From contig KE354349.1 in assembly GCA_000415505.1 (NCBI GenBank), positions 1 through 32,793 on the forward strand: a stretch of DNA of 32,793 bases. The letters run 5' to 3'. Shown one piece after another: positions 1 to 14,002 of the stretch. The notes under the pieces are model-generated. The model ran no database searches. It saw only the letters and a list, made by a program, of their open reading frames with translations, and was not told where the DNA came from. This stretch comes from Streptomyces afghaniensis 772 (GTDB lineage Bacteria; Actinomycetota; Actinomycetes; Streptomycetales; Streptomycetaceae). A program made the translations under genes and the position numbers. The stretch's first letter is position 1; every line of letters begins with the position of its first letter.

Positions 1-3596
<3,596 letters not shown>

Positions 3597-3600
<4 letters not shown>

Positions 3601-4580
3601 GACAGCCCCCGCAGATGGGCCACGAGGTGCGCGGCGCACCCCACTCCGTAGGTGGCCCGCAGCCGCGCCAGCAGCGCATCGCGGTACAGCCGGTACTCCT
3701 GTGTCCCGACGTAGTCCAGGACCGTGGCGGCCAGGACGCAGCCGAGTTGGGCGGCGCACTTCTCCGGTACGCCCCACGCCGCACCCGCGAGGAATCCCGC
3801 GCGGAAGGCGTCACCGACTCCTGTGGGGTCCACGACGCCCGCCACCTCGACGGCGGGAACGGCCAGGGCCTGGCGCCCGTCCTTGCGGATCCGGACGCCC
3901 GCTGCTCCGTGCGTGGTGACCCAGCAGCCGACGCGGCGCAGGATCTCCGCAACGGTCAGGCCGGTACGGTCCTGCAGCAGCGCGGCCTCGTACTCGTTGG
4001 TGAACAGCCAGCGTGCGCCGTCGATCAGTTCGAGGACGTCGTTCTTGCCCAGGCGCGCCAGTTGCTGGGACGGGTCGGAGGCGAAGGGGATGCCGAGGGA
4101 GCGGCATGCCCGGGTGTGCCGGAGCATGGCCTCGGGGTCGTCGGGCGAGACCATCACCAGCCCGAGCCGGCCGACCCGCTCCACGACCGTCCGCAGGTCG
4201 ATCCGGCGGGCTTCCGCCATGGCGCCGGCGTAGAACGTCCCGATCTGCTTCTGCATCCGGTCGGTCGTGCACACGAAGCGTGCCGTGTGCTGTTCCTCGC
4301 TGACCAGCACGGAGTCGGTGTCGACCCCGTGCTGCTTCAGCCAGATCCGGTAGGGCTCGAAGTCGTCGCCGACCGCGCCGACGAGCACGGGCCGCATGCC
4401 GAGCAGCCCGAGGCCGAAGGAGATGTTCGCTGCCACGCCGCCGCGACGGATCTCCAGCCGGTCGGCGAGGAAGGACAGGGAGACACGGTCCAGGCGGTCG
4501 GCCAGAAGCTGGTCGGTGAAACTCCCCGGGAACGACATCAGATGGTCGGTGGCGATGGAGCCCGTGACAGCGATGCGCAT
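3597..4580 (-). CDS. adoK: Adenosine kinase (PfkB family)
   Basis: This is a 327-residue ribokinase/PfkB-family protein. Its N-terminus (MRIAVTGSIATDHLMSFPG) and the segments RGGVAANISFGLGLLG, DPSQQLARL, FTNEYE and DPTGVGDAFRAGFL closely follow the mycobacterial adenosine kinase pattern as I recall it. The Asp in GVGDAFRAG is the catalytic base and the preceding Gly-rich loop forms the anion hole. In the SAM cycle it would convert adenosine released from S-adenosylhomocysteine to AMP, pulling hydrolysis forward. It starts 2 nt downstream of the metK stop and overlaps metH, so the genes are co-translated. A general sugar kinase is less likely given the AdoK-specific motifs and the neighbours. 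Confidence 0.85.
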
Positions 4581-4581
4581 C

Positions 4582-5790
4582 TCAGCCCCCCACAGCCCTG
4601 AGCAGGGCCTCGACCCGGTCCGTGGACTCCCAGGTCAGTTCCGGGAGTTCACGTCCGAAGTGGCCGTACGCCGCGGTCCGGGCGTAGATCGGCCGCAACA
4701 GGTCCAGGTCATGGATGATCGCGGCAGGCCGCAGGTCGAACACTTCGGTGATGGCGGCCTGGATGCGGTCCACGGGCACGGCTTCGGTGCCGAAGGTCTC
4801 GACGAACAGGCCGACGGGCTCGGCCTTGCCGATGGCGTAGGCGACCTGGACCTCGCAGCGGGAGGCGAGGCCCGCGGCGACGACGTTCTTGGCGACCCAG
4901 CGCATCGCGTACGCCGCCGAGCGGTCCACCTTGGAGGGGTCCTTGCCGGAGAAGGCGCCGCCGCCGTGGCGGGCCATGCCGCCGTAGGTGTCGATGATGA
5001 TCTTGCGGCCGGTCAGGCCGGCGTCACCCATCGGGCCGCCGATCTCGAAGCGGCCGGTCGGGTTGACCAGCAGCCGGTAACCGTCGCTCTCCAGACTCAG
5101 GCCTTGTTCGGCCAGCGCCTTGAGCGTGGGCTCGACGACGAGGTCCCGGATGTCGGGGGCCAGGAGGCCGTCGAGGTTGATGTCGGGGGCGTGCTGCGAG
5201 GAGACGACGACGGTGTCCAGACGTACCGGCCAGTCGCCGTCGTACTCGATGGTGACCTGCGTCTTGCCGTCCGGTCGCAGGTAGGGGCAGGTTCCGTTCT
5301 TGCGGACCTCGGTCAGTCGCTCGGCCAGCCGGTGCGCGAGGTGGATCGGCAGCGGCATGAACTCAGGAGTGTCGTCGCAGGCGTACCCGAACATCAGGCC
5401 CTGGTCGCCGGCGCCCTGCCGGGACAGCTCGTCCCCGCCGCCTTCGATCCGGGCCTCGTACGCGGAGTTCACCCCCTGCGCGATGTCCGGGGACTGCGAT
5501 CCGATCGAGAGCGACACACCGCAGGACGCCCCGTCGAAGCCTTTCGCGGAGGAGTCGTAGCCGATCTCGAGGATCGTGTCGCGCACCAGCTGGGCGATGG
5601 GAGCGTACGCAGTCGTGGTGACCTCGCCCGCGATGTGCACCTGCCCCGTGGTGATCAGGGTCTCCACGGCGACGCGCGAGGCCGGATCCTGTGCGAGCAG
5701 CGCGTCCAGGACCGTGTCGCTGATCCGGTCGGCGATCTTGTCGGGATGACCCTCGGTGACCGATTCGGAGGTGAAGAGCCTCCGGCCCAT
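4582..5790 (-). CDS. metK: S-adenosylmethionine synthase
   Basis: This 402-residue protein makes SAM from methionine and ATP. The family signatures are all present: [18 protein letters not shown] at the N-terminus (His of GHPDK contacts the triphosphate), [18 protein letters not shown] near residue 125, and [19 protein letters not shown] near residue 260. Length is normal and the frame is intact. The ATG lies one base past the stop of the carrier-protein gene, so it is translationally coupled to it rather than having its own leader. That placement in a biosynthetic operon suggests a pathway-dedicated paralogue rather than the housekeeping copy, which cannot be checked from this window. Confidence 0.95.
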
Positions 5791-5791
5791 C

Positions 5792-6034
5792 TCACTTCAC
5801 CCCCGCTCGGAAGAAGTTGGCGTCGATGGCGTCGAGGGTGCGGATGGCGTCGACCTCGAGGGTCTCCATCTCGATGGGGCGACCGCAGTGCTGTTCCAGC
5901 AGGAAGACGAACTCGACGAAGGACAGCGAGTCGATGAGGCGGTTCTCGATCAGGTCCAGGTCGCCCGGGATGTCCTCGCGGTCCGGGTGACGCTTGAGGA
6001 TCCAGTCCTTGACCTGCTGCAGGGCCTCGCTCAT
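5792..6034 (-). CDS. Stand-alone acyl/aminoacyl carrier protein
   Basis: This is an 80-residue acidic helical protein with the carrier signature [17 protein letters not shown]. The Ser in D-S-L (residue 36) is the phosphopantetheine site. I chose the ATG at 6034 because a GAGGAG ribosome site sits 6-12 bases upstream. The frame is open to 6148 but has no comparable site there. It follows a dedicated AcpS-type transferase and an amino acid:[carrier protein] ligase, so it is more likely an aminoacyl carrier than a fatty-acid ACP. It precedes metK by one base and heads the SAM-recycling genes. Confidence 0.85.
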
Positions 6035-6080
6035 GGGTGTGCTCCTCACATTGCTGTGTACAGGTGGGTGGGCAGGCGCC

Positions 6081-6518
6081 TCACGGCCGGAGGCCGGAGG
6101 GATCGCCGAGGATGGGGGCGGCCACGGCGACCGCGTAGTCCACGTCATGGCTGATGCTCACCGTGATGTCCGTGATGCCGGACTGCGCCGCCATGTCGGC
6201 GGCGCCTCGCCGCAGCTCGACGAGCGGCCAGCCACCGTCCGAGCGGCGCACCACGATGTCCCGCCACGGCAGGAAACGGCCCCGGACCCGCAGTGTCTTG
6301 AACGCCGCTTCCTTGGCCGCGATCCGACCGCAGAGACTGAGCAGGTCAAGCCCACTGGACGTGCGGCAGTCGGCGAGTTCTCCGGGGTCCAGCATCCGCT
6401 CGAAGAACCCCTCGCCGTGGTCCTCGAGGAGTCGGCGGACGCGCTTGACGGACACGATGTCCATGCCGAGGTTCGCCCAGCCCGGGCCGCCGCCTCCGGC
6501 GGTAGGGTGGGCCGGCAC
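6081..6518 (-). CDS. Holo-ACP synthase type 4'-phosphopantetheinyl transferase
   Basis: This protein of about 145 residues transfers phosphopantetheine from CoA to a carrier protein Ser. AcpS motifs are clear: GMDIVSVKRV near residue 18 (Asp is a Mg ligand), GRIAAKEAAFKTL near residue 65 (Glu is a Mg ligand), and the C-terminal VSISHDVDYAVAVA. The GTG at 6518 is taken as the start because it sits directly after the stop of the ligase gene. The GMDIV Met at residue 19 is an alternative and would match the usual AcpS length better. The neighbour downstream is its probable substrate, the 80-residue carrier protein. Confidence 0.85.
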   Translation of the reverse strand: MPAHPTAGGGGPGWANLGMDIVSVKRVRRLLEDHGEGFFERMLDPGELADCRTSSGLDLLSLCGRIAAKEAAFKTLRVRGRFLPWRDIVVRRSDGGWPLVELRRGAADMAAQSGITDITVSISHDVDYAVAVAAPILGDPSGLRP

Positions 6519-6519
6519 G

Positions 6520-7407
6520 TCACACCCCCGGTCCGACCGGGGAGAATCGGTCCCTGGCCGCGTGGACGGCCTCCGTGGCGGCGGCCCAGCTGCCGTGCCG
6601 CCGGGTGAGTGCGGACAGCCAGCGCTCCAGGCCGAAGGCGACGCAGCTGGTGAAGGCCGGACCGCCGGTGCCGGCGAGGGTGATGGAGCAGCGGTCGCCG
6701 AAGAAGTTGCGGTGGGTGTTGACGGAGGCGATGGCCAGGTCCTCGTAGAGGAATTCGTGCTTGACGGGCGACAGCCGCTGCAGCACCGCCTTGGAGCCGC
6801 CCTTGTCGTAGAAGGGGTCGCAGGCGGCTTCCTTGCGCAGCGGCAGGTCCAGCGCCCGGGCGAAGGCGGTGATGCGGTCGCTGAAGTCGCACAGGTGGCT
6901 CTCGGCGTGCTCGCGGCTGCCGAGTGCCACGATCTCCCGCATGCGGAAGCCGAGTTGGCGCCTGAGCCCCTCGTAGCGCTCCTCCTTGCGGAAGCACCAG
7001 CCGACGACGGTGACGAGGGTGTCGTCCGCCACCTCGCGGTCTTCGTGGTCGAGGTAGACCGCGTAACAGGACGCGGAGGGCAGACCGAGTTCGGCGGGTT
7101 GCAGAGTGCTGCAGGGAAAGCATCCCGTCTCGGCACAGAACTCACCGCGCCGGTCGACCTCGATCGCGGTGGCGACGACGGCCTGGTGCGGGAAGTTCTC
7201 GTAATAGTCCAGGCGCCGCAGATCCGCGGCCGGCAGCAGCGGGGGCATCGTCATGGAGCGTGCTCCGGCAGCCACTCCCCACCTTTCGAAGGTGTCGTCG
7301 AGGAGCCTCAGCAGGGCGGTGCCCTCCGGTCCGAGGGAGGGTAAGCCGCGGGCTTCCCGGGATGAGTCCGGTGAAGATCGCGGGGCTGTGAACGTGGTGT
7401 GGGACAC
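6520..7407 (-). CDS. Class II aminoacyl-tRNA synthetase-like amino acid:[carrier protein] ligase
   Basis: This is a 295-residue protein with a SerRS-like catalytic core but no N-terminal tRNA-binding coiled coil. Motif 2 is the CFRKEERYEGLRRQ stretch (138-151) followed by GFRMREIVALG, and motif 3 is SCVAFGLERWLSAL (254-267, with the invariant ER). Cys114, Glu142/143 and Cys255 fall where the family's zinc ligands lie. Family members (for example rhizobial enzymes described in the literature) activate small amino acids as adenylates and load them on a phosphopantetheinyl carrier protein rather than tRNA. The carrier protein and AcpS genes directly downstream fit this role. The amino acid is not predictable here. 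The start is GTG, with GAGAGGTGG upstream. Confidence 0.82.
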   Translation of the reverse strand: MSHTTFTAPRSSPDSSREARGLPSLGPEGTALLRLLDDTFERWGVAAGARSMTMPPLLPAADLRRLDYYENFPHQAVVATAIEVDRRGEFCAETGCFPCSTLQPAELGLPSASCYAVYLDHEDREVADDTLVTVVGWCFRKEERYEGLRRQLGFRMREIVALGSREHAESHLCDFSDRITAFARALDLPLRKEAACDPFYDKGGSKAVLQRLSPVKHEFLYEDLAIASVNTHRNFFGDRCSITLAGTGGPAFTSCVAFGLERWLSALTRRHGSWAAATEAVHAARDRFSPVGPGV

Positions 7408-7428
7408 GGTGGTTGACCACCTCTCGGG

Positions 7429-8319
7429 TCAGATGACCGGCAGCGTGTCGTCGGAGAAGATCCCGGTCTTGAGGAAGAAGGCGAGCGGCTTGCGGATGGC
7501 CTTGCGCTCGTGCGCGCGCCGGCGCTCGTCGGCGACGAGCGCGTTGCGCAGACCGAGCGGGTCGGCGATGCCGGCATCGCGGTAGACGTGCGGGTTGTAG
7601 AGGGAGTTGACGCTGAAGACGACATAGCGCTTGAGGTAGCTCTCCACCTCGCGCAGCCGCTCCTCGCCCACCGCGTCGCGCATCCGGGTGAACAGCAGCG
7701 AGACCAGCTCGCGCCCGAAGGCGATGTGGCGGGACTCGTCCTGGTGGTGGATGCGGTTGACCTGGCGGATGGTGTCGCAGAGTGTCTCGTCCTGCGCCAT
7801 CCGCGTGTTGTAGTGGTCGACCAGCTCCTCGAAGAACAGGATGCGGGCGAAGACGAGGAAGTTCTCGACCTCGGGTTCCCAGGCCGAGTCGGCGCGCATG
7901 GCGGTCGAGGCGTAGATCTTGTCGCCGTAGCGGCGGCAGAACTCGGCGAAGAACCACATGTGTTCGTTCTCTTCGCCGATGAAGTGGTGGAAGAAGTCGG
8001 ACGGCACCTCGAAGCCGGGCATGTGGATGCGGTGGACGACCTCGATGAGCAGTTCGCGGATGCCGTGCACATTGAGGCTGTAGAAGTTGATGGACTCCCA
8101 CTTGGACAGCCGGTGCAGGGTCTCCTCGCCGAGCTCGTCGAAGTACGGGGTTCCGTAGGGGGTGAGCAGCTCGGGGCTCATCCACAGGCGGTTCTCGTCC
8201 AGCTTCTCGGGCCAGTCGAACTGCTGGTACGGGTTGTAGTAGTCCTCGATGGCCTTCTCGCTGAGCCGTTCGAGCACTTCGAGGAAGCGGTCGGTGACGG
8301 GCAGGGCCGTGGCGGCCAT
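7429..8319 (-). CDS. AurF-family ferritin-like diiron oxygenase
   Basis: This 296-residue all-helical protein is most like the p-aminobenzoate N-oxygenase AurF family. The iron-ligand pattern is visible: Glu117-x-x-His120 in the EENEH helix, Glu164 in FFEELVDHY, and His191-x3-Glu195-x2-His198 in HHQDESRH. The spacing from Glu164 to His191 (27) and the last triad match AurF numbering, and a further Glu in KWES or GIREL would complete the set. The family usually oxidises amines to hydroxylamine, nitroso or nitro groups, though C-hydroxylation is known. Genes around it load an amino acid on a carrier protein and methylate, so a carrier-bound or released amino acid is the likely substrate (inference). 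AAGGAG precedes the ATG. Confidence 0.85.
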   Translation of the reverse strand: MAATALPVTDRFLEVLERLSEKAIEDYYNPYQQFDWPEKLDENRLWMSPELLTPYGTPYFDELGEETLHRLSKWESINFYSLNVHGIRELLIEVVHRIHMPGFEVPSDFFHHFIGEENEHMWFFAEFCRRYGDKIYASTAMRADSAWEPEVENFLVFARILFFEELVDHYNTRMAQDETLCDTIRQVNRIHHQDESRHIAFGRELVSLLFTRMRDAVGEERLREVESYLKRYVVFSVNSLYNPHVYRDAGIADPLGLRNALVADERRRAHERKAIRKPLAFFLKTGIFSDDTLPVI

Positions 8320-8365
8320 GGTCTCTCCTTACGCGGGCGGGTCGGGACCGGACGCGGTGCGCGGC

Positions 8366-9439
8366 TCAGGGCCGGACTTCGTACACGGCGTTGACCGGGG
8401 TCTCGGTCGCGCGCCGCCAGCGGGTGAAGCCGGCCTCCTCCGCGATGGCGCGGAACGCCTTCTCGCCGGAGTGGTTGCCGAGGGCGTGCGGGCCGCGCTG
8501 GGCGACGGCGACGGGCAGGCACATCACGGCGGACAGCGACATGAACATGCGGGCCGCCGGTGTGCGGGTGTCGATGTCGGCGGGCGAGACGTTGGACTCG
8601 ACGAGCATCCAGGTGCCGTCCCCGTCCAGGGACTTGTGGACGTGCTGGGCGGCGGCGACCGGGTCGCCCATGTCGTGCAGGCAGTTGAAGAAGGTGACCA
8701 GGTCGTAGCCGCTGCCCGGGTAGTCGTCGGCGGACGCGGTCTCGAAGACGACGCGCCCGGACAGGCCCGCGTCGTCGGCGAGCTGCCGGGCGATGGTGAC
8801 GGCCTCCTCCGAGTAGTCGAAGCCGTACACCCTGGCCTGCGGGAAGGCCTTGGCGATGAGCAGGGTGGTGTGCCCCACGCCGCAGCCGATGTCGGCGACG
8901 CTGCCGCCGTTCGCCAGCTTCTCGGTGACGCCTTCCAGCGCGGGCAGCCAGTCGGTCAGCAGCCGGTGCCGGTAGGTGGGCTGGAAGAAGCTGCCCATGC
9001 CGGTGTCGAGCGCCGGGTCGTGCTCGGCCCAGCCCACACCCTCGCCCGTGCGGTATGCGTCGACGAGTAGGTCCTCGGTGGCGTACAGCGCCTTGAGCGC
9101 GGTGAAGAATCCGGCGGCGTACGTGGCGGACCCGGCGTCGGCGAGGACGGCGGCGTGCGCCTCGGGCAGGGTGTACTTGTCGGACGACGGGTGGCGTTCC
9201 ACGTAGTCGGCGCTGAGCTGGGCGTGCAGCCACTCCTGCGCGTACCGCTCGGTGACGCCGGCGTGTTCCGCGAGTTCCGCGGGGGTGAGCGGGCCGTGCT
9301 CGGCGAGTGCGCGGTACAGGCCGAGCCGCTCGCCGAGGGAGATGGTCAGGCCGCGGACGGCGGCTGCGGCGTCGTCGATGACGCGCTGGTGGAAGGCAGT
9401 GGTCGGGTCGGCGCTCGGGGCGTGGGTCGGGGCGGTCAT
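8366..9439 (-). CDS. SAM-dependent methyltransferase with N-terminal winged helix
   Basis: This is a 357-residue class I methyltransferase. Residues about 15-90 form the winged-helix dimerisation-like domain seen in Rv2258c-type enzymes. The Rossmann core begins at SVADIGCGVGHTTLLIAKAF (motif I), with an acidic end of strand 2 at YGFDYSEEAV and a post-motif LVTFFNCLHDMGDP. It probably methylates an O, N or C atom of the cluster's small-molecule product. The acceptor cannot be read from sequence. Its start overlaps the stop of the upstream methyltransferase as ATGA, so the two are co-translated. Confidence 0.85.
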   Translation of the reverse strand: MTAPTHAPSADPTTAFHQRVIDDAAAAVRGLTISLGERLGLYRALAEHGPLTPAELAEHAGVTERYAQEWLHAQLSADYVERHPSSDKYTLPEAHAAVLADAGSATYAAGFFTALKALYATEDLLVDAYRTGEGVGWAEHDPALDTGMGSFFQPTYRHRLLTDWLPALEGVTEKLANGGSVADIGCGVGHTTLLIAKAFPQARVYGFDYSEEAVTIARQLADDAGLSGRVVFETASADDYPGSGYDLVTFFNCLHDMGDPVAAAQHVHKSLDGDGTWMLVESNVSPADIDTRTPAARMFMSLSAVMCLPVAVAQRGPHALGNHSGEKAFRAIAEEAGFTRWRRATETPVNAVYEVRP

Positions 9440-10266
9440 GACGTCGCCTCGTCTCGGGTCGCGGTGAACAGGAAGGACCGGGGCACGCGGGGTACCTCAC
9501 GTGGCGGCACGGGGTAGGGCCAGCGGCCGAAGTCGGCGCCGTCCTCTCCCGGCTGCCTGACCTCGCGCACCGTCCAGCCGCAGGAGGTGAGCAGCTGCTC
9601 GGGCTCCTCGGTGCCGAACAGCCAGGGATTTCCGTCCTCTTCGAGCGCCTTCATGAACGGCCGCGAGAGCGGGTTCTCCAGGGCCGCCTTGCTGATGACG
9701 TCCCCGAGGAGGGCCGAGCCCGGCGCGCTGTGCTGCCACAGGGTCGTGATCAGGGTGCGCACGGCGTCCTCGGGCAGGAAGAACAGCAGGCCCTCGACCA
9801 CCCACAGCGTGGGCTGCTCCGAGCGCCAGCCCGCTTCTTTCAGCGGGCCGGTCCAGTCCTGGGTGAGGTCGACGGCGACGGTGCGGCGTTCCCGGCCGGC
9901 CGGCTCCGGCTCATCGGCGAGCATGGCCGCCTTGGCCTCGAGTAGTGCGGGCCGGTCGAGTTCGTAGACGGTGACGCCCGTGGGCCAGTCGAGCCGGTAG
10001 TAGCGGGTGTCCATACCGGCCGCGAGGAACACGACCTGGCGGATCTCCCGCTCCCGCATCGCGCGGCCGATGGCGCGGTCCAGGTAGGTGGTGCGGATGG
10101 CGAGGAACGGCACGGTGCCTGCGCCCGCGTAGCGATCGAGCAGCTCGAAGCCGACGGTGCCGGCGACCGTGCGGGCGTAGGGATCGGCGAACAGCCGGTC
10201 CTCACGCTCGGTCTCCAGTGCCCGCGCGGCGGCGGTCCACTGGGCAGTGCGGGATACGGCCTCCAC
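9436..10266 (-). CDS. SAM-dependent methyltransferase, LCM/TIGR00027 family
   Basis: This 276-residue protein belongs to the leucine-carboxyl-methyltransferase-like family common in actinobacteria. Its segments are typical: a TAQWTAAARALE start, RLFADPYA, FLAIRTTYLDRAI, VVFLAAGMDTRYYRL (SAM motif I, AAGMDTR), VYELDRPALLEAK and LWVVEGLLFFLP. In biosynthetic clusters such enzymes methylate carboxylates or hydroxyls. The start is GTG with GGGAGA upstream. It overlaps the next methyltransferase by four bases. Two methyltransferases in series are consistent with the heavy investment in SAM recycling downstream. Confidence 0.85.
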   Translation of the reverse strand: MEAVSRTAQWTAAARALETEREDRLFADPYARTVAGTVGFELLDRYAGAGTVPFLAIRTTYLDRAIGRAMREREIRQVVFLAAGMDTRYYRLDWPTGVTVYELDRPALLEAKAAMLADEPEPAGRERRTVAVDLTQDWTGPLKEAGWRSEQPTLWVVEGLLFFLPEDAVRTLITTLWQHSAPGSALLGDVISKAALENPLSRPFMKALEEDGNPWLFGTEEPEQLLTSCGWTVREVRQPGEDGADFGRWPYPVPPREVPRVPRSFLFTATRDEATS

Positions 10267-10331
10267 AGGAGGTCTCCCTTCGGGAAGCTTGGGAAGCGAA
10301 GGTGGAGCGGGGGCTGTGCGGACGGCCGTGT

Positions 10332-10844
10332 TCAGCGCTCTCGTACACAGGGGACCGGGTCCTCCGCCGCGGACATCGACGCGGGGGATTCGGCGGAGGT
10401 GTCGGCAGGGCGCCGCCGGAAGATGCTGTGCAGGATCATGCTGAACACGACCGTCCCGTCGGGGGCCACCAGCTCGCAGCGCGGCTGGACGATGCCGGTG
10501 GCGGGATTACCGAACGAGGGGCGCGATCCGAGGATCCGGATCCGCGCGGTGAGGATGTCGCCCGGACGCACGGGCCGGTGGTAGCGGACCTCGTCGATGC
10601 CCGGGGATCCGACGCAGGCGCTGTAGGCGAGGAGCCCGTCGACGTAGCGCCGCATGAAGAGCGCCGAGGTGTGGAAGCCGCTGGCGATCAGCCCACCGAA
10701 GGGCGACTGCTTCGCGAGCTCCGGGTCGGTGTGGAAGGGCTGCGGGTCGTAGCGCCGTGCGAACTCCAGCACCTCCTCCTCGGTGACGGTGACGGTGCCC
10801 AGCTCGTGGATGTCACCGGTGCGGAAGTCCTCGAAGTAGCGCAT
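10332..10844 (-). CDS. MaoC-like hot-dog-fold dehydratase/hydratase
   Basis: This 170-residue protein has the single hot-dog fold of MaoC/R-specific enoyl hydratases. FARRYDPQPFHTDPELA (about 30-45) carries the catalytic Asp-x4-His arrangement and is followed by GFHTSALFMRR. A conserved VRYHRPVRPGD strand lies near residue 90. It would hydrate or dehydrate an acyl-thioester, possibly on the cluster's carrier protein. The ATG follows an AGGGGGG site. It is the first gene after a consensus promoter and probably leads the transcript through the methyltransferases and beyond. The last ~25 residues are low-complexity. Confidence 0.8.
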   Translation of the reverse strand: MRYFEDFRTGDIHELGTVTVTEEEVLEFARRYDPQPFHTDPELAKQSPFGGLIASGFHTSALFMRRYVDGLLAYSACVGSPGIDEVRYHRPVRPGDILTARIRILGSRPSFGNPATGIVQPRCELVAPDGTVVFSMILHSIFRRRPADTSAESPASMSAAEDPVPCVRER

Positions 10845-10885
10845 GACGCCCCCCTGGAGCCGGAGAAAAGATTCTCTTGACGTGC

Positions 10886-10930
10886 TCCAATCTACGAACG
10901 AGCCGTTTATTTTGTCAATCCAAATCTACG
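10886..10930 (-). repeat. Direct repeat flanking the operon promoter (possible operator)
   Basis: On the minus strand CGTAGATTTGGA (10930-10919) and CGTAGATTGGA (10896-10886) are near-identical, 33 bases apart. The first abuts the -35 and the second contains the -10. The spacing is about three helical turns. The upstream copy also contains the TAG stop of the PLP-enzyme gene. Confidence 0.4.
10889..10918 (-). promoter_or_regulatory. Probable sigma-70-type promoter for the maoC-methyltransferase-oxygenase operon
   Basis: Read on the minus strand, TTGACA (10918-10913) and TAGATT (10894-10889) are separated by 18 bases in an unusually AT-rich patch. The maoC-like ATG lies 45 bases downstream, and the 5' leader contains a small GAGAA/TTCTC hairpin. 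The -35 is a full consensus match. Confidence 0.65.
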
Positions 10931-12092
10931 GTCGAACCAAAGCTTGTTCGATGTCTCGCCAGAGGTCGTCCGGGTGCTCGATGCCCACCGACATCCGCAC
11001 CGTCCCGGCGCCGATACCGGCCGCCGCCAGGGCCTCCTCGCCGAGTTCCCGGTGCGATGTCGACGCCGGGTGAGCGACCAGCGTCTCCACTCCGCCCAGC
11101 GAGAGCGCGAGCCGGGCGAGTCGCACCCGCTCGATGAACGCGCGGCCGGCCGCCCGCCCGCCGGCGAGCTCGAACGAGACCATGCCGCCACCTCCGGACA
11201 GCACCTTGCGCGCCAGGTCGTACGACGGATGACCGGGCAACCAGGGCCAGTGCACGGCGGTGACCTGCTCGTGCTCGGCGAGACGACCGGCCAGCAGTCG
11301 TGCGCCCGCGCAGTGCTGCCGCATCCGCAGCGGCAGCGACGGCAGCCCGCGCAGGGTCAGCCAGGCGGCGAACGGGTCGGCGCAGGCTCCGAGTTCGACC
11401 GTGCGCGGCCACACCCGGTCGCGCAGCTCCACGTCGGCGAAGACGGCGACCCCGCCCAGTACGTCGGAGTGCCCCGCCAGATATTTGGTCGTCGAGTGCA
11501 CGACCACGTCTGCGCCGTGCTCCATGGGGCGGCACAGCACCGGCGACGCGAGGGAGTTGTCCACCACGCTCACCACACCGTGCCGCCGGGCAGCGGCCGA
11601 CAGGCCGGGAAGATCGGGTACTTGTCCGGTCGGATTGGCGATGGTCTCGAGATGCAGCACGCGAGTGGTGGGCCGCACCAGCCGCTCGAACTCGGCCGGG
11701 TCGTCGCCTCGTACGTACTCCACCTCGACGCCGTAGCGCGCCGCGAGGTCCGAGAGCACGGCGTACGTACCGCCGTACAGGCAGCGCTGGGCGACCACGT
11801 GGTCACCCGGCCGCAGCAGCGAGAGCAGCACCCCGCTGATCGCACCCATCCCGGACGCGAAGGCGATGGCGGCGGCTCCGCCTTCCAGCGCGGCGAGTGT
11901 GCGCTCGAGCGCCCGCACGGTCGGGTTGCCACGCCGCGAGTAGACGTACGGGCCGTCGGGTCCGGCCATGGCGCCGGCGAGCGCGTCAGCGGAGTCGAAG
12001 GCGAAGGCCGAGGACTGGACGATGGGAACGCTCAAAGGCTGACTGCCGCTCGGCATCGGCTCGTTCAGGATGTGCACGGCACGGGTCTGCAT
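10926..12092 (-). CDS. PLP-dependent Cys/Met-metabolism (trans-sulfuration family) enzyme
   Basis: This 388-residue fold-type I enzyme matches the cystathionine gamma-synthase/gamma-lyase/methionine gamma-lyase family. PLP contacts are present: YSRRGNPT (51-58, Tyr/Arg from the partner subunit), FASGMGA, NPTG near 153, VDNS (Asp178) and Schiff-base Lys203 in HSTTKYLAGHSD. The loop LYGGTY lacks the Cys that methionine gamma-lyases carry after YG, so a lyase or gamma-substitution role on cystathionine or O-acyl-homoserine is at least as likely. The ATG at 12092 lies 14 bases from AGAGGAG. The TTG at 12098 is better spaced (8) and may be the true start. It is probably linked to the methionine/homocysteine economy of the cluster. 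Confidence 0.83.
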   Translation of the reverse strand: MQTRAVHILNEPMPSGSQPLSVPIVQSSAFAFDSADALAGAMAGPDGPYVYSRRGNPTVRALERTLAALEGGAAAIAFASGMGAISGVLLSLLRPGDHVVAQRCLYGGTYAVLSDLAARYGVEVEYVRGDDPAEFERLVRPTTRVLHLETIANPTGQVPDLPGLSAAARRHGVVSVVDNSLASPVLCRPMEHGADVVVHSTTKYLAGHSDVLGGVAVFADVELRDRVWPRTVELGACADPFAAWLTLRGLPSLPLRMRQHCAGARLLAGRLAEHEQVTAVHWPWLPGHPSYDLARKVLSGGGGMVSFELAGGRAAGRAFIERVRLARLALSLGGVETLVAHPASTSHRELGEEALAAAGIGAGTVRMSVGIEHPDDLWRDIEQALVRP

Positions 12093-12125
12093 GTCCAAGG
12101 CGGGTGCTCCTCTCTGCACAGAACT

Positions 12126-12241: not shown

Positions 12242-13684
12242 CTAGACGCCGGCCCGCTCGCCCCGCGCCGCGGAGGCGGCGTCGGCCTGGGGTGCGGCAG
12301 CCGCCTTGTCGCTGCGCATCACCAGCAGGGTGATCAGCCCGCCCGCAGCGGCGATGACGGCGGCCCAGATGAACGCGGCACTGAAGCCGTCCGTCAGCGC
12401 GGGCAGGTTGCCCAGCTGTCCGGCGCCCTGCGACGTGGCGACCGCGGTCAGCGCCGCGAGCCCCAGCGCGGAGCCCACCTGGTAGGTGGTGTTGACGATG
12501 CCGGACGCCAGACCCGCCTGCTCCTGCGGAGCCCCGGACATGGCGGCCATCATCGCCGGGATGTAGGCGAGCGACATGCCGAGCGCGGCGACCAGCGAGG
12601 CAGGCAGGACATCGACCACGAAGGTGCCGGTGGGCTCGACGGCGGACAGCCAGAGCAGTCCGGCGGCGAGGACCAGCAGACCACCGCCGATCATCGGCTT
12701 GGCGCCGAACTTGACCATCAGCTTCGCCGTGATCGCCGTCATGAAGATCATCAGCAGACCGGTCATCGGCAGCAGCGCGGCACCGGACGCGAACGCCCCG
12801 TAACCGAGGACCTGCTGCAGGTACAGGTTGAGGAAGTACCACATCGGGATCCATGCGGCACCGAGCAGCGTCATCGCGAGGTTGGCCGAGCCGAGCCGCG
12901 GGACGCGCCAGATACCGAGCGGCATCAGCGGCTCGCGCACCGTCTTCTGGATCACGAAGAAGAGCACGAGCAGCGCGACGGCACCGGCCAGCTGAAGCAC
13001 GGTCCCGGTGGAGGTCCAGCCGACCTCCGGCGCGCGGACGATGGCGAAGACCGCGAGCGCCAGGCCGGCCGTGACCGCGGCGGCTCCGAGCACGTCGACG
13101 GAACCGCGACGGCTGCCGACGGCGGGCAGGAGCTTGGTGGCCGCGAGGGTGGCGACGCCGATCGGGACGTAGATGATGAAGATCCACGGCCAGCTGAGCC
13201 ACTCGGTGAAGACTCCGCCGAGGAACACACCGGCCGTGCCGCCCGCGGGGGCTGCGGCGCCGTAGAGCGCCATGGCCTTGCCGAGCTCCTTCGGGTCGTG
13301 CGCGAAGAGCATCATCAGCAGCGTCATGGCCGACGGTGCGATCAGCGCGCCGCCCACACCCTGAACGGCACGGCCGACGACCTCCACCCACGCCGTCTGC
13401 GCGGCGGCCGCGACGACCGAGCCGGCGATCAGCACGACCCAGCCGGTGTTGAAGATCTTGCGGGCACCGATCAGGTCGGAGAGGCGGCCGCCGAGCAGCA
13501 GCAGTCCGCCGAAGGCGATGACGTAGGCGTTGAAGACCCACTGCAACTCACCCTGCGAGAAGCCGAGGTCCTTCTGCATCTCGGGGAGCGCCACCCCGAT
13601 GATTGACGTGTCCATGATGACCATGAACTGAGCGGCGGCGAGCACGACCAGTGCCCACCAGCGCCGGGGATTGACGGCAGACAT
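12242..13684 (-). CDS. MFS drug:H+ antiporter, DHA2 (14-TM) family
   Basis: This 480-residue membrane protein begins WWALVVLAAAQFMVIMDTSIIGVALP, the conserved first helix of DHA2 exporters (MD-TSI-x-x-ALP). Motif A is GGRLSDLIGARKIF and motif C-like glycines lie at LYGAAAPAGGTAG. Hydrophobic segments are consistent with 14 helices. It would export a small toxic product, and its orientation and position make it a candidate exporter of the neighbouring cluster's product. The ATG at 13684 is preceded by GAAGGGA. The frame is open further upstream, but that part overlaps operator-like palindromes. The presence of those palindromes suggests metal-, sulfur- or aldehyde-responsive control. Confidence 0.88.
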   Translation of the reverse strand: MSAVNPRRWWALVVLAAAQFMVIMDTSIIGVALPEMQKDLGFSQGELQWVFNAYVIAFGGLLLLGGRLSDLIGARKIFNTGWVVLIAGSVVAAAAQTAWVEVVGRAVQGVGGALIAPSAMTLLMMLFAHDPKELGKAMALYGAAAPAGGTAGVFLGGVFTEWLSWPWIFIIYVPIGVATLAATKLLPAVGSRRGSVDVLGAAAVTAGLALAVFAIVRAPEVGWTSTGTVLQLAGAVALLVLFFVIQKTVREPLMPLGIWRVPRLGSANLAMTLLGAAWIPMWYFLNLYLQQVLGYGAFASGAALLPMTGLLMIFMTAITAKLMVKFGAKPMIGGGLLVLAAGLLWLSAVEPTGTFVVDVLPASLVAALGMSLAYIPAMMAAMSGAPQEQAGLASGIVNTTYQVGSALGLAALTAVATSQGAGQLGNLPALTDGFSAAFIWAAVIAAAGGLITLLVMRSDKAAAAPQADAASAARGERAGV

Positions 13685-13704
13685 GGGTTGATCCCTTCTC
13701 TGAC

Positions 13705-13721
13705 ATACCCCTGGGGGGTAC
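13705..13721 (-). promoter_or_regulatory. CsoR-family-like operator, proximal copy
   Basis: ATACCCCTGGGGGGTAC is an A/T-flanked C-run/G-run palindrome of the kind bound by CsoR/RcnR-family repressors (copper, persulfide or formaldehyde sensors). It lies 20 bases upstream of the exporter ATG. No gene for such a repressor is in the window. Confidence 0.5.
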
Positions 13722-13740
13722 CTTCGGCTGCGAAGGTAGC

Positions 13741-13757
13741 ATACCCATAGGGGGTAT
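13741..13757 (-). promoter_or_regulatory. CsoR-family-like operator, distal copy
   Basis: ATACCCATAGGGGGTAT is a better palindrome of the same type, centred 36 bases from the proximal copy. Between the two sits another inverted repeat, TACCTTCG-GCTG-CGAAGGTA (13719-13738). Two boxes in phase argue for a real regulatory element. Confidence 0.55.
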
Positions 13758-13758
13758 G

Positions 13759-14002
13759 TAAGAGAGCCAGTGGAGATCCGTCCTGTGCTGTCAAAGCGAT
13801 GATTCACGCCCACGCTCCCGGACGTCAGTGACATCCGGGACTCTCTGCGCATGACGAGCCGTCATGTGACGCCGTCTCCTCAACGCACCTGCGACGAGAC
13901 GCAGTTCGGCAAGTAGTTGCTCCCCCGAGTTCACGATCACGACCTGATGTGGCTCCTACTACTGACGGAGCCCCCCGGAGGGGCACGCGAGAGGGAGACG
14001 CC
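13759..14002. other. Divergent intergenic region without a recognised gene
   Basis: About 240 bases lie between the operator region and the plus-strand small-membrane-protein gene. Apart from the ribosome site GAGGGAG at 13991-13997, no gene, strong promoter or hairpin was recognised. Promoters for both divergent units presumably lie here. Confidence 0.5.

Follow-up and report, generated by a model that had tools for sequence, protein, structure and literature searches.

Glycine-derived O-methyl nitronates are formed through a diiron oxygenase and a methyltransferase in the pathway of He and Ryan 2021, as described in passages of PMC9967187, and the same passages report that glycine is proposed to be loaded on a nonribosomal peptide synthetase in the akazaoxime/A-76356 cluster. 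In lincomycin biosynthesis, according to excerpts of PMC5518657 and PMC4351081, LmbV swaps ergothioneine for mycothiol, LmbE removes the glucosaminyl-inositol, deacetylation is followed by loss of the cysteine residue through the pyridoxal phosphate (PLP) enzyme LmbF, and S-methylation is tentatively attributed to LmbG. In glucosinolate synthesis, glutathione adds to an activated aldoxime and the conjugate is cleaved by a C-S lyase to the thiohydroximate, with nitronates named among the chemical precursors to nitrile oxides (both from parts of PMC7582585). The locus compared here with these systems lies in a 32,793-nt window (the whole stretch of DNA analyzed) of Streptomyces afghaniensis 772, contig KE354349.1. 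The window contains a real, conserved biosynthetic gene cluster in which a known, enteromycin-type core is joined to an extension that is apparently undescribed. No publication was recognized as describing the full cluster in a literature search whose coverage left out most subscription journals. An earlier note on this DNA knew of no characterized pathway with this gene set, which appears to hold for the extension and not for the core.

The gene set that the note had named was confirmed on one strand by Pfam and NCBIfam profiles and third-position GC. The genes for the ligase, AcpS, carrier protein, oxygenase, two methyltransferases, MaoC enzyme, and PLP enzyme are all present on the minus strand between 5792 and 12119 (Table 1). 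Third-position GC was of the coding type for the named block genes, AcpS excepted, which is based on its Pfam match. In relatives the order PLP-MaoC-LCM-MTa-AurF-ligase-AcpS-carrier is kept, where MTa is shorthand for the winged-helix methyltransferase at 8366-9439. Ligase matches were found in 77 of 295 Streptomyces genomes. Regions were fetched around the best of these matches, and 17 of the 20 contained the full block, with protein identities of ~50-98%; the arrangement is therefore not due to chance. MetK adjoined the block in 16 of the 17 block-bearing regions (one only as a contig-end fragment), and the cluster was present in at least 18 of the 295 sampled genomes, its own genome counted. 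The cluster extends past both ends of the block and past the end of the contig.

The predicted loading module consists of the ligase, AcpS, and the carrier protein. The only solved relatives found for the ligase were Bradyrhizobium Bll0957 (3mey, E 1.5e-23) and one variant. Residues 46-277 aligned to Bll0957, with 80 of 229 aligned residues identical (35%), and the protein has a SerRS-like core without the tRNA-binding arm. Its zinc-ligand positions C114, E158, and C255 are kept and align to chain positions 151, 196, and 299, which presumably correspond to zinc ligands C131, E176, and C279 of Bll0957 (chain numbering +20). The two ligases share a SerRS-like catalytic core, zinc-ligand positions, and a partner carrier, whereas the window ligase is shorter, only 35% identical, and located in an N-oxidation cluster. 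Its top NCBIfam match, NF005479 ("amino acid--[acyl-carrier-protein] ligase"), reached 125 bits against a cut-off of 357; as it falls under the curated aaCPS cut-off, it is probably a divergent relative that works like aaCPS, an assignment drawn from genomic context and the solved relatives. AcpS matched PF01648 at 44 bits (cut-off 25, with a longer stretch scanned). The putative carrier scored 17.6 bits for PF00550, under the cut-off of 20.8, and is assigned from its context. More ligase-carrier pairs were observed on Streptomyces and Tistrella plasmids (loci L002, L003, L004, L005). The L003 pair is accompanied by p-aminobenzoate (PABA) synthase and ketosynthase genes, and the L004 pair, on S. 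clavuligerus pCLA1, had no AurF match within 15 kb.

The oxygenase fits the AurF/CmlI family profile and fold. Residues E117, H120, E164, H191, E195, and H198 were invariant across 30 aligned sequences, and the ligand spacings equal those of Dob3 E137/H140 and E198/H225/E229/H232. The six metal ligands and the seventh His of N-oxygenases were matched, with E75 (invariant) or E89 (nearly so) as the first-helix Glu. Homology and conserved context support the activation of an amino acid on a free-standing carrier, its N-oxidation by the AurF-type enzyme, and methylation, broadly as the earlier note put forward.

Searching with the oxygenase alignment yielded 247 AurF loci, and locus counts were made on the best 80. 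The core cassette of AurF, ligase, AcpS, carrier, and LCM genes recurs beyond the full cluster in other actinomycetes, including Streptomyces albireticuli NRRL B1670 (L117), S. achromogenes (L113), and Kitasatospora (L124). In all three, genes for KASIII-like, ATP-grasp, decarboxylase, second carrier, and acyl-CoA dehydrogenase proteins follow the cassette, and these had no match in the window or on contig C641 of the S. afghaniensis genome. We take S. albireticuli to be an enteromycin species. The five-gene core fits the published enteromycin logic, in which a glycyl-carrier is converted to a nitronate and then to an O-methyl nitronate: carrier-bound, glycine-derived nitronate logic, a diiron N-oxygenase, and a nitronate O-methyltransferase would be held in common, and the cassette itself is shared with S. 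albireticuli, a match judged on L113, L117, and L124. Of the two methyltransferases, the LCM enzyme constantly accompanies the AurF-ligase-AcpS-carrier cassette, L117 included, and on this ground we infer that it, rather than MTa, is the nitronate O-methyltransferase. MTa matched solved TnmJ (8g5s, E 5e-57), had no match in the enteromycin-like loci L108-L124, and is proposed to act as a late S- or N-methyltransferase. In contrast to the enteromycin-like loci, the window cluster adds the MaoC enzyme, the PLP enzyme, the second methyltransferase, an S-adenosylmethionine (SAM) cycle, and mycothiol genes. On one contig of Streptomyces sp. HNM0574, an enteromycin-like cassette (L103) and a PLP/MTa cluster (L053) were found with their oxygenase genes ~12 kb apart. 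A cassette with actinomycete-like proteins was also seen in L104, labeled Candidatus Melainabacteria, where contamination is possible, and L100 is labeled Microtetraspora glauca while a contig of equal length, G076, is placed in Streptomyces.

The extension is divided between the window and contig C641, the two contigs being joined by an identical end. In the contiguous relative G009, MetF, SAHH, and an MDMPI-type gene come after MetH and are followed by a divergent PIG-L gene, the same order as on C641. SAHH, MDMPI, and PIG-L were identified by Pfam, and MetF by sequence resemblance alone. MetH is a single 1215-aa frame in the relative L025 versus three frames in the window; as the draft comprises 1724 contigs and the window gene sits at the end of one, the breakage is possibly an assembly error. 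The kinase is probably specific for adenosine, judging solely from its SAM-cycle context. The genome has a further MetK (contig C487, 82%), a further SAHH (90%), and a further MshA (contig C510, plus C366 with a weaker match); these duplicates suggest that SAM and mycothiol are supplied from within the cluster. The earlier note ended with a small amino acid product, N-oxygenated or methoxylated, and so did not take in SAM recycling, MDMPI, PIG-L, the extra MshA, and the copper genes present in some genomes; these genes of the larger cluster suggest that the O-methyl nitronate stage is followed by thiol chemistry or by protection based on thiols.

Mycothiol-type genes were counted at a 40% identity threshold in loci of at least 20.6 kb. 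An MDMPI-type transferase was present in 24 of 26 loci with a PLP or MTa gene versus 4 of 26 without. The cluster itself contains the MDMPI/DinB-family, mycothiol-dependent type of transferase found in lincomycin-type systems. The PLP enzyme had methionine gamma-lyases as its nearest solved relatives, with FUB7 (8erb) also matched. It carries Gly at the position of a Cys in the C. freundii enzyme 1y4i (Cys115, which we take to be the methionine gamma-lyase active-site residue) and scored 372 bits against TIGR01328, under the cut-off of 550; neither the active-site Cys nor this model would place it among methionine gamma-lyases. The PLP enzyme and MTa families fit the roles of C-S lyase and S-methyltransferase, as far as family membership can indicate. 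The MaoC enzyme matched the solved MaoC-like dehydratase 3exz (E 9e-20). An orthologue of the MFS transporter adjoined the PLP gene in 15 of the 17 block regions; it did not in L031 and was elsewhere in the locus in L040.

We tentatively favor the reading that a small metabolite, N-oxygenated and containing sulfur, is made by the cluster via mycothiol trapping, though with somewhat less than even confidence. In this scheme, AcpS would arm the carrier and the ligase would load a small amino acid, most likely glycine, after which the AurF-type enzyme would convert the carrier-bound amine to a nitro/nitronate group. The LCM methyltransferase would O-methylate the nitronate, and the O-methyl could form a leaving group. 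Up to this O-methyl nitronate, the steps are supported by homology and conserved context; for all later steps, the sulfur steps and the product included, we infer the following. MaoC may help convert the O-methyl nitronate to a nitrile-oxide-like electrophile, or assist addition; the MDMPI/DinB-type transferase would add mycothiol, the PIG-L hydrolase would remove the glucosaminyl-inositol part, and the PLP enzyme would cleave the C-S bond to give a thiohydroximate or thiohydroxamate. MTa would then methylate S or N, and the MFS transporter would export the product. Regeneration of SAM by MetK, the kinase, MetH, MetF, and SAHH is proposed because two methyl groups would be spent per molecule. 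By analogy, the scheme combines nitronate formation as in enteromycin, sulfur donation by mycothiol as in lincomycin, and the glucosinolate route. If mycothiol trapping is correct, nitronate chemistry is joined here to thiol chemistry, mycothiol gains a further case as a biosynthetic sulfur donor, and there are direct test reactions for a bacterial thiohydroximate pathway.

Table 1. Features of the cluster in the window and its continuation on contig C641.
Feature	Coordinates	Strand	Details
Contig end	1-305		exact identity to last 305 bp of contig C641, same genome
MetH, B12-dependent methionine synthase	133-3777	minus	pieces 2209-3777, 1394-1984, 133-1416; TIGR02082 partial matches and Pfam domains
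PfkB-family kinase, probably adenosine kinase	3597-4580	minus	PF00294, 135 bits
MetK, SAM synthetase	4582-5790	minus	PF02773, PF02772, PF00438
Carrier protein (putative)	5792-6034	minus	80 aa, DSLS motif
AcpS-type phosphopantetheinyl transferase	6081-6464	minus	127 aa from MDIVSV start
SerRS-like amino acid:[carrier protein] ligase (predicted)	6520-7407	minus	295 aa; solved relative Bll0957 (3mey)
AurF/CmlI-type diiron N-oxygenase	7429-8319	minus	PF11583 (AurF), 125.8 bits, cut-off 29.6
MTa, winged-helix + class I methyltransferase (TnmJ/Rv2258c-like)	8366-9439	minus	PF21320 and PF13847 (Methyltransf_31)
LCM-family methyltransferase	9436-10266	minus	PF04072, 158 bits; TIGR00027, 218 bits
MaoC-fold hydratase/dehydratase-like enzyme	10332-10844	minus	PF01575, 68 bits
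Cys/Met-metabolism PLP enzyme, proposed C-S lyase	10926-12119	minus	PF01053, 409 bits
MFS transporter	12242-13852	minus	PF07690, 164 bits
Genes on contig C641			MetF, SAHH, MDMPI, PIG-L, AsnB-like, PrpF-like, SDR, MetRS-like, MshA, regulators, CsoR, CopA, CopZ

The clustering of a DinB/MDMPI protein, a PIG-L-type hydrolase, a fold-type-I PLP enzyme, and a SAM methyltransferase is shared with lincomycin/celesticetin (LmbV, LmbE, LmbF, LmbG). The window cluster differs from lincomycin in its electrophile, in its PLP family, and in a PIG-L protein not close to Mca/MshB. Several observations weigh against mycothiol trapping. No N-deacetylase was recognized in the cluster, although lincomycin deacetylates before the PLP lyase acts, and no product is known for the cluster. 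The nearest solved relatives of the PIG-L protein were diacetylchitobiose deacetylases and LnmX, a leinamycin biosynthesis protein. In NCBIfam it matched BshB alone, under cut-off (E 1e-10), with no match to MshB or Mca, for which we take the library to include models. PIG-L was also 16-30 kb distant in 8 of 12 genomes, so its neighborhood is loose in those eight; in G143, G268, and G004 it was just outside the first-fetched flanks. MDMPI had no PDB match by sequence search. It keeps two His, and an invariant Gly, four residues before the second, occupies the position at which spacing would place the zinc Glu; the zinc residues of maleylpyruvate isomerase are His52, Glu144, and His148 (given in parts of PMC5518657/PMC4351081). 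Locus L054 was without MDMPI, while L103 ends before the MDMPI position. The MDMPI and PLP/MTa counts are not phylogenetically independent, with 3 label changes per tree in trees where the dense clade L045-L082 was thinned to 8 rows and rows with a stop or <220 aa were left out. As the G genomes and the 80 L loci overlap (for example, L061/G003, L060/G004, and L070/G162), the two sets are not independent either. L092-L095 have MDMPI, MaoC, and PIG-L with the cassette, yet no PLP or MTa match. Finally, the scheme assigns no role to the AsnB, PrpF-like, SDR, and MetRS-like genes; all four were found in L053, in L069, and on C641, and SDR, PrpF, and AsnB were not found in G038. As a separate observation, PCC-domain, FAD-NAD, and PhyH genes follow in L042, on the same contig as L095, perhaps as a second branch of the same chemistry.

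The main rival, which we consider unlikely, is that an enteromycin-like O-methyl nitronate is the final product and the mycothiol genes merely protect the producer, with MDMPI conjugating any electrophile that leaks, PIG-L trimming the conjugate, and the MFS transporter exporting it. The enteromycin-type cassette at the core is consistent with this, as is the resemblance of lincomycin biosynthesis to the actinomycete detoxification system of mycothiol conjugation and cleavage (noted in excerpts of PMC5518657 and PMC4351081). L092-L095 have the MDMPI and PIG-L pair without PLP or MTa, and the AsnB-like or MetRS-like enzymes could form an amide. However, of the 26 loci without PLP/MTa that span at least 20.6 kb, 22 had neither MDMPI nor PIG-L at 40% identity, though those with a full cassette should yield the same electrophile. 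Protection would also leave MaoC, the PLP enzyme, and MTa without a role, and neither the window nor C641 showed the genes for amide formation that L117/L124 have.

Two further alternatives appear improbable. In one, the PLP enzyme would form a C-C bond: a homoserine ester, methionine, or SAM would give a vinylglycine-type intermediate that the nitronate carbon attacks, leading to a nitro or isoxazoline amino acid. FUB7, a member of the Cys/Met PLP family, presumably performs C-C bond chemistry, and the MetK gene within the operon and the Gly in place of the methionine-lyase Cys point the same way; MDMPI, PIG-L, MshA, and the co-occurrence of MDMPI with PLP/MTa would all be left unexplained. 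In the other, to which we give similarly little credence, MshA, PIG-L, and the MetRS-like protein (in L040, an MshC-like one) would build a mycothiol-like pseudodisaccharide that is incorporated in the product. MshA exceeded its cut-off of 462 with 537 bits, as measured on the L127 copy from G074. The MetRS-like protein beside it (L137 901-2466; also L125, L127, L147) reached 170 bits for metG, under the cut-off of 336, and keeps a HIGH-type motif and zinc-knuckle-like Cys pairs, with no KMSKS motif seen by eye. In L040, an MshC-like paralogue at 2354-3616 (385 bits, under the cut-off of 485) adjoins the rearranged cluster, where it may stand in for the MetRS-like gene. Against this, in the available stretches the MetRS-like match was absent in L040, L086, L087, and L090, and the MshA match in L086 and L087. 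It is very improbable that the nitronate is denitrified to glyoxylate and nitrite instead of being kept, as may occur in the related plasmid cassettes of Streptomyces sp. NBC_01431 and Tistrella mobilis that carry a nitronate monooxygenase (L002, L005). The title of He and Ryan 2021 (cited in a part of PMC9967187) does name a denitrification branch, but tblastn at E 1e-3 matched neither monooxygenase to the window or to C641, and conservation of the LCM methyltransferase also speaks against this route.

Mycothiol trapping also has a more specific form, which is quite unlikely as a whole, namely a bacterial counterpart of glucosinolate synthesis. MaoC would eliminate methanol from the carrier-glycine O-methyl nitronate to give a nitrile oxide, mycothiol would trap it, and the thiohydroximate freed by the PLP enzyme would be N-methylated to a minimal, fluopsin-like copper-binding thiohydroxamate. 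The likeness to glucosinolates is by chemistry alone and comprises an N-oxidized amino acid electrophile, a cell-thiol trap, and a C-S lyase giving a thiohydroximate, whereas the plant route uses P450s, glutathione, and SUR1. By analogy, the window cluster has each type of part that a nitronate-to-thiohydroximate route would need, with MaoC as the acid-base enzyme. We take fluopsin C to be a copper thiohydroxamate complex; among the copper-binding thiohydroxamates that glycine could give by the proposed logic, it would be the simplest. The Pseudomonas fluopsin route starts from cysteine, whereas the proposed route would start from glycine, again a comparison by chemistry alone. If correct, a metalloantibiotic would be reached convergently, with another amino acid as the starting point. 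Fluopsin C has been reported from Streptomyces, according to passages of PMC6824035 and PMC7288723.

Copper genes beside some copies of the cluster are suggestive, though only that, of a metal-related, possibly copper-binding product. CopZ, CsoR, or a close CopA was near the cluster in 5 of 48 PLP/MTa-positive loci (L046, L061, L084, L085, L086) and in none of the 32 other, PLP/MTa-negative loci. Among 8 further genomes with extended flanks, no copper genes were found, and G038 gave a partial match. Copper genes were also present in the flanks of G000, G009, G074, and G285, and CopZ adjoins the MFS gene in G003 (L026). A tyrosinase-like frame, recognized by eye, lies at 9170-10156 of L148, near the copper genes of C641.

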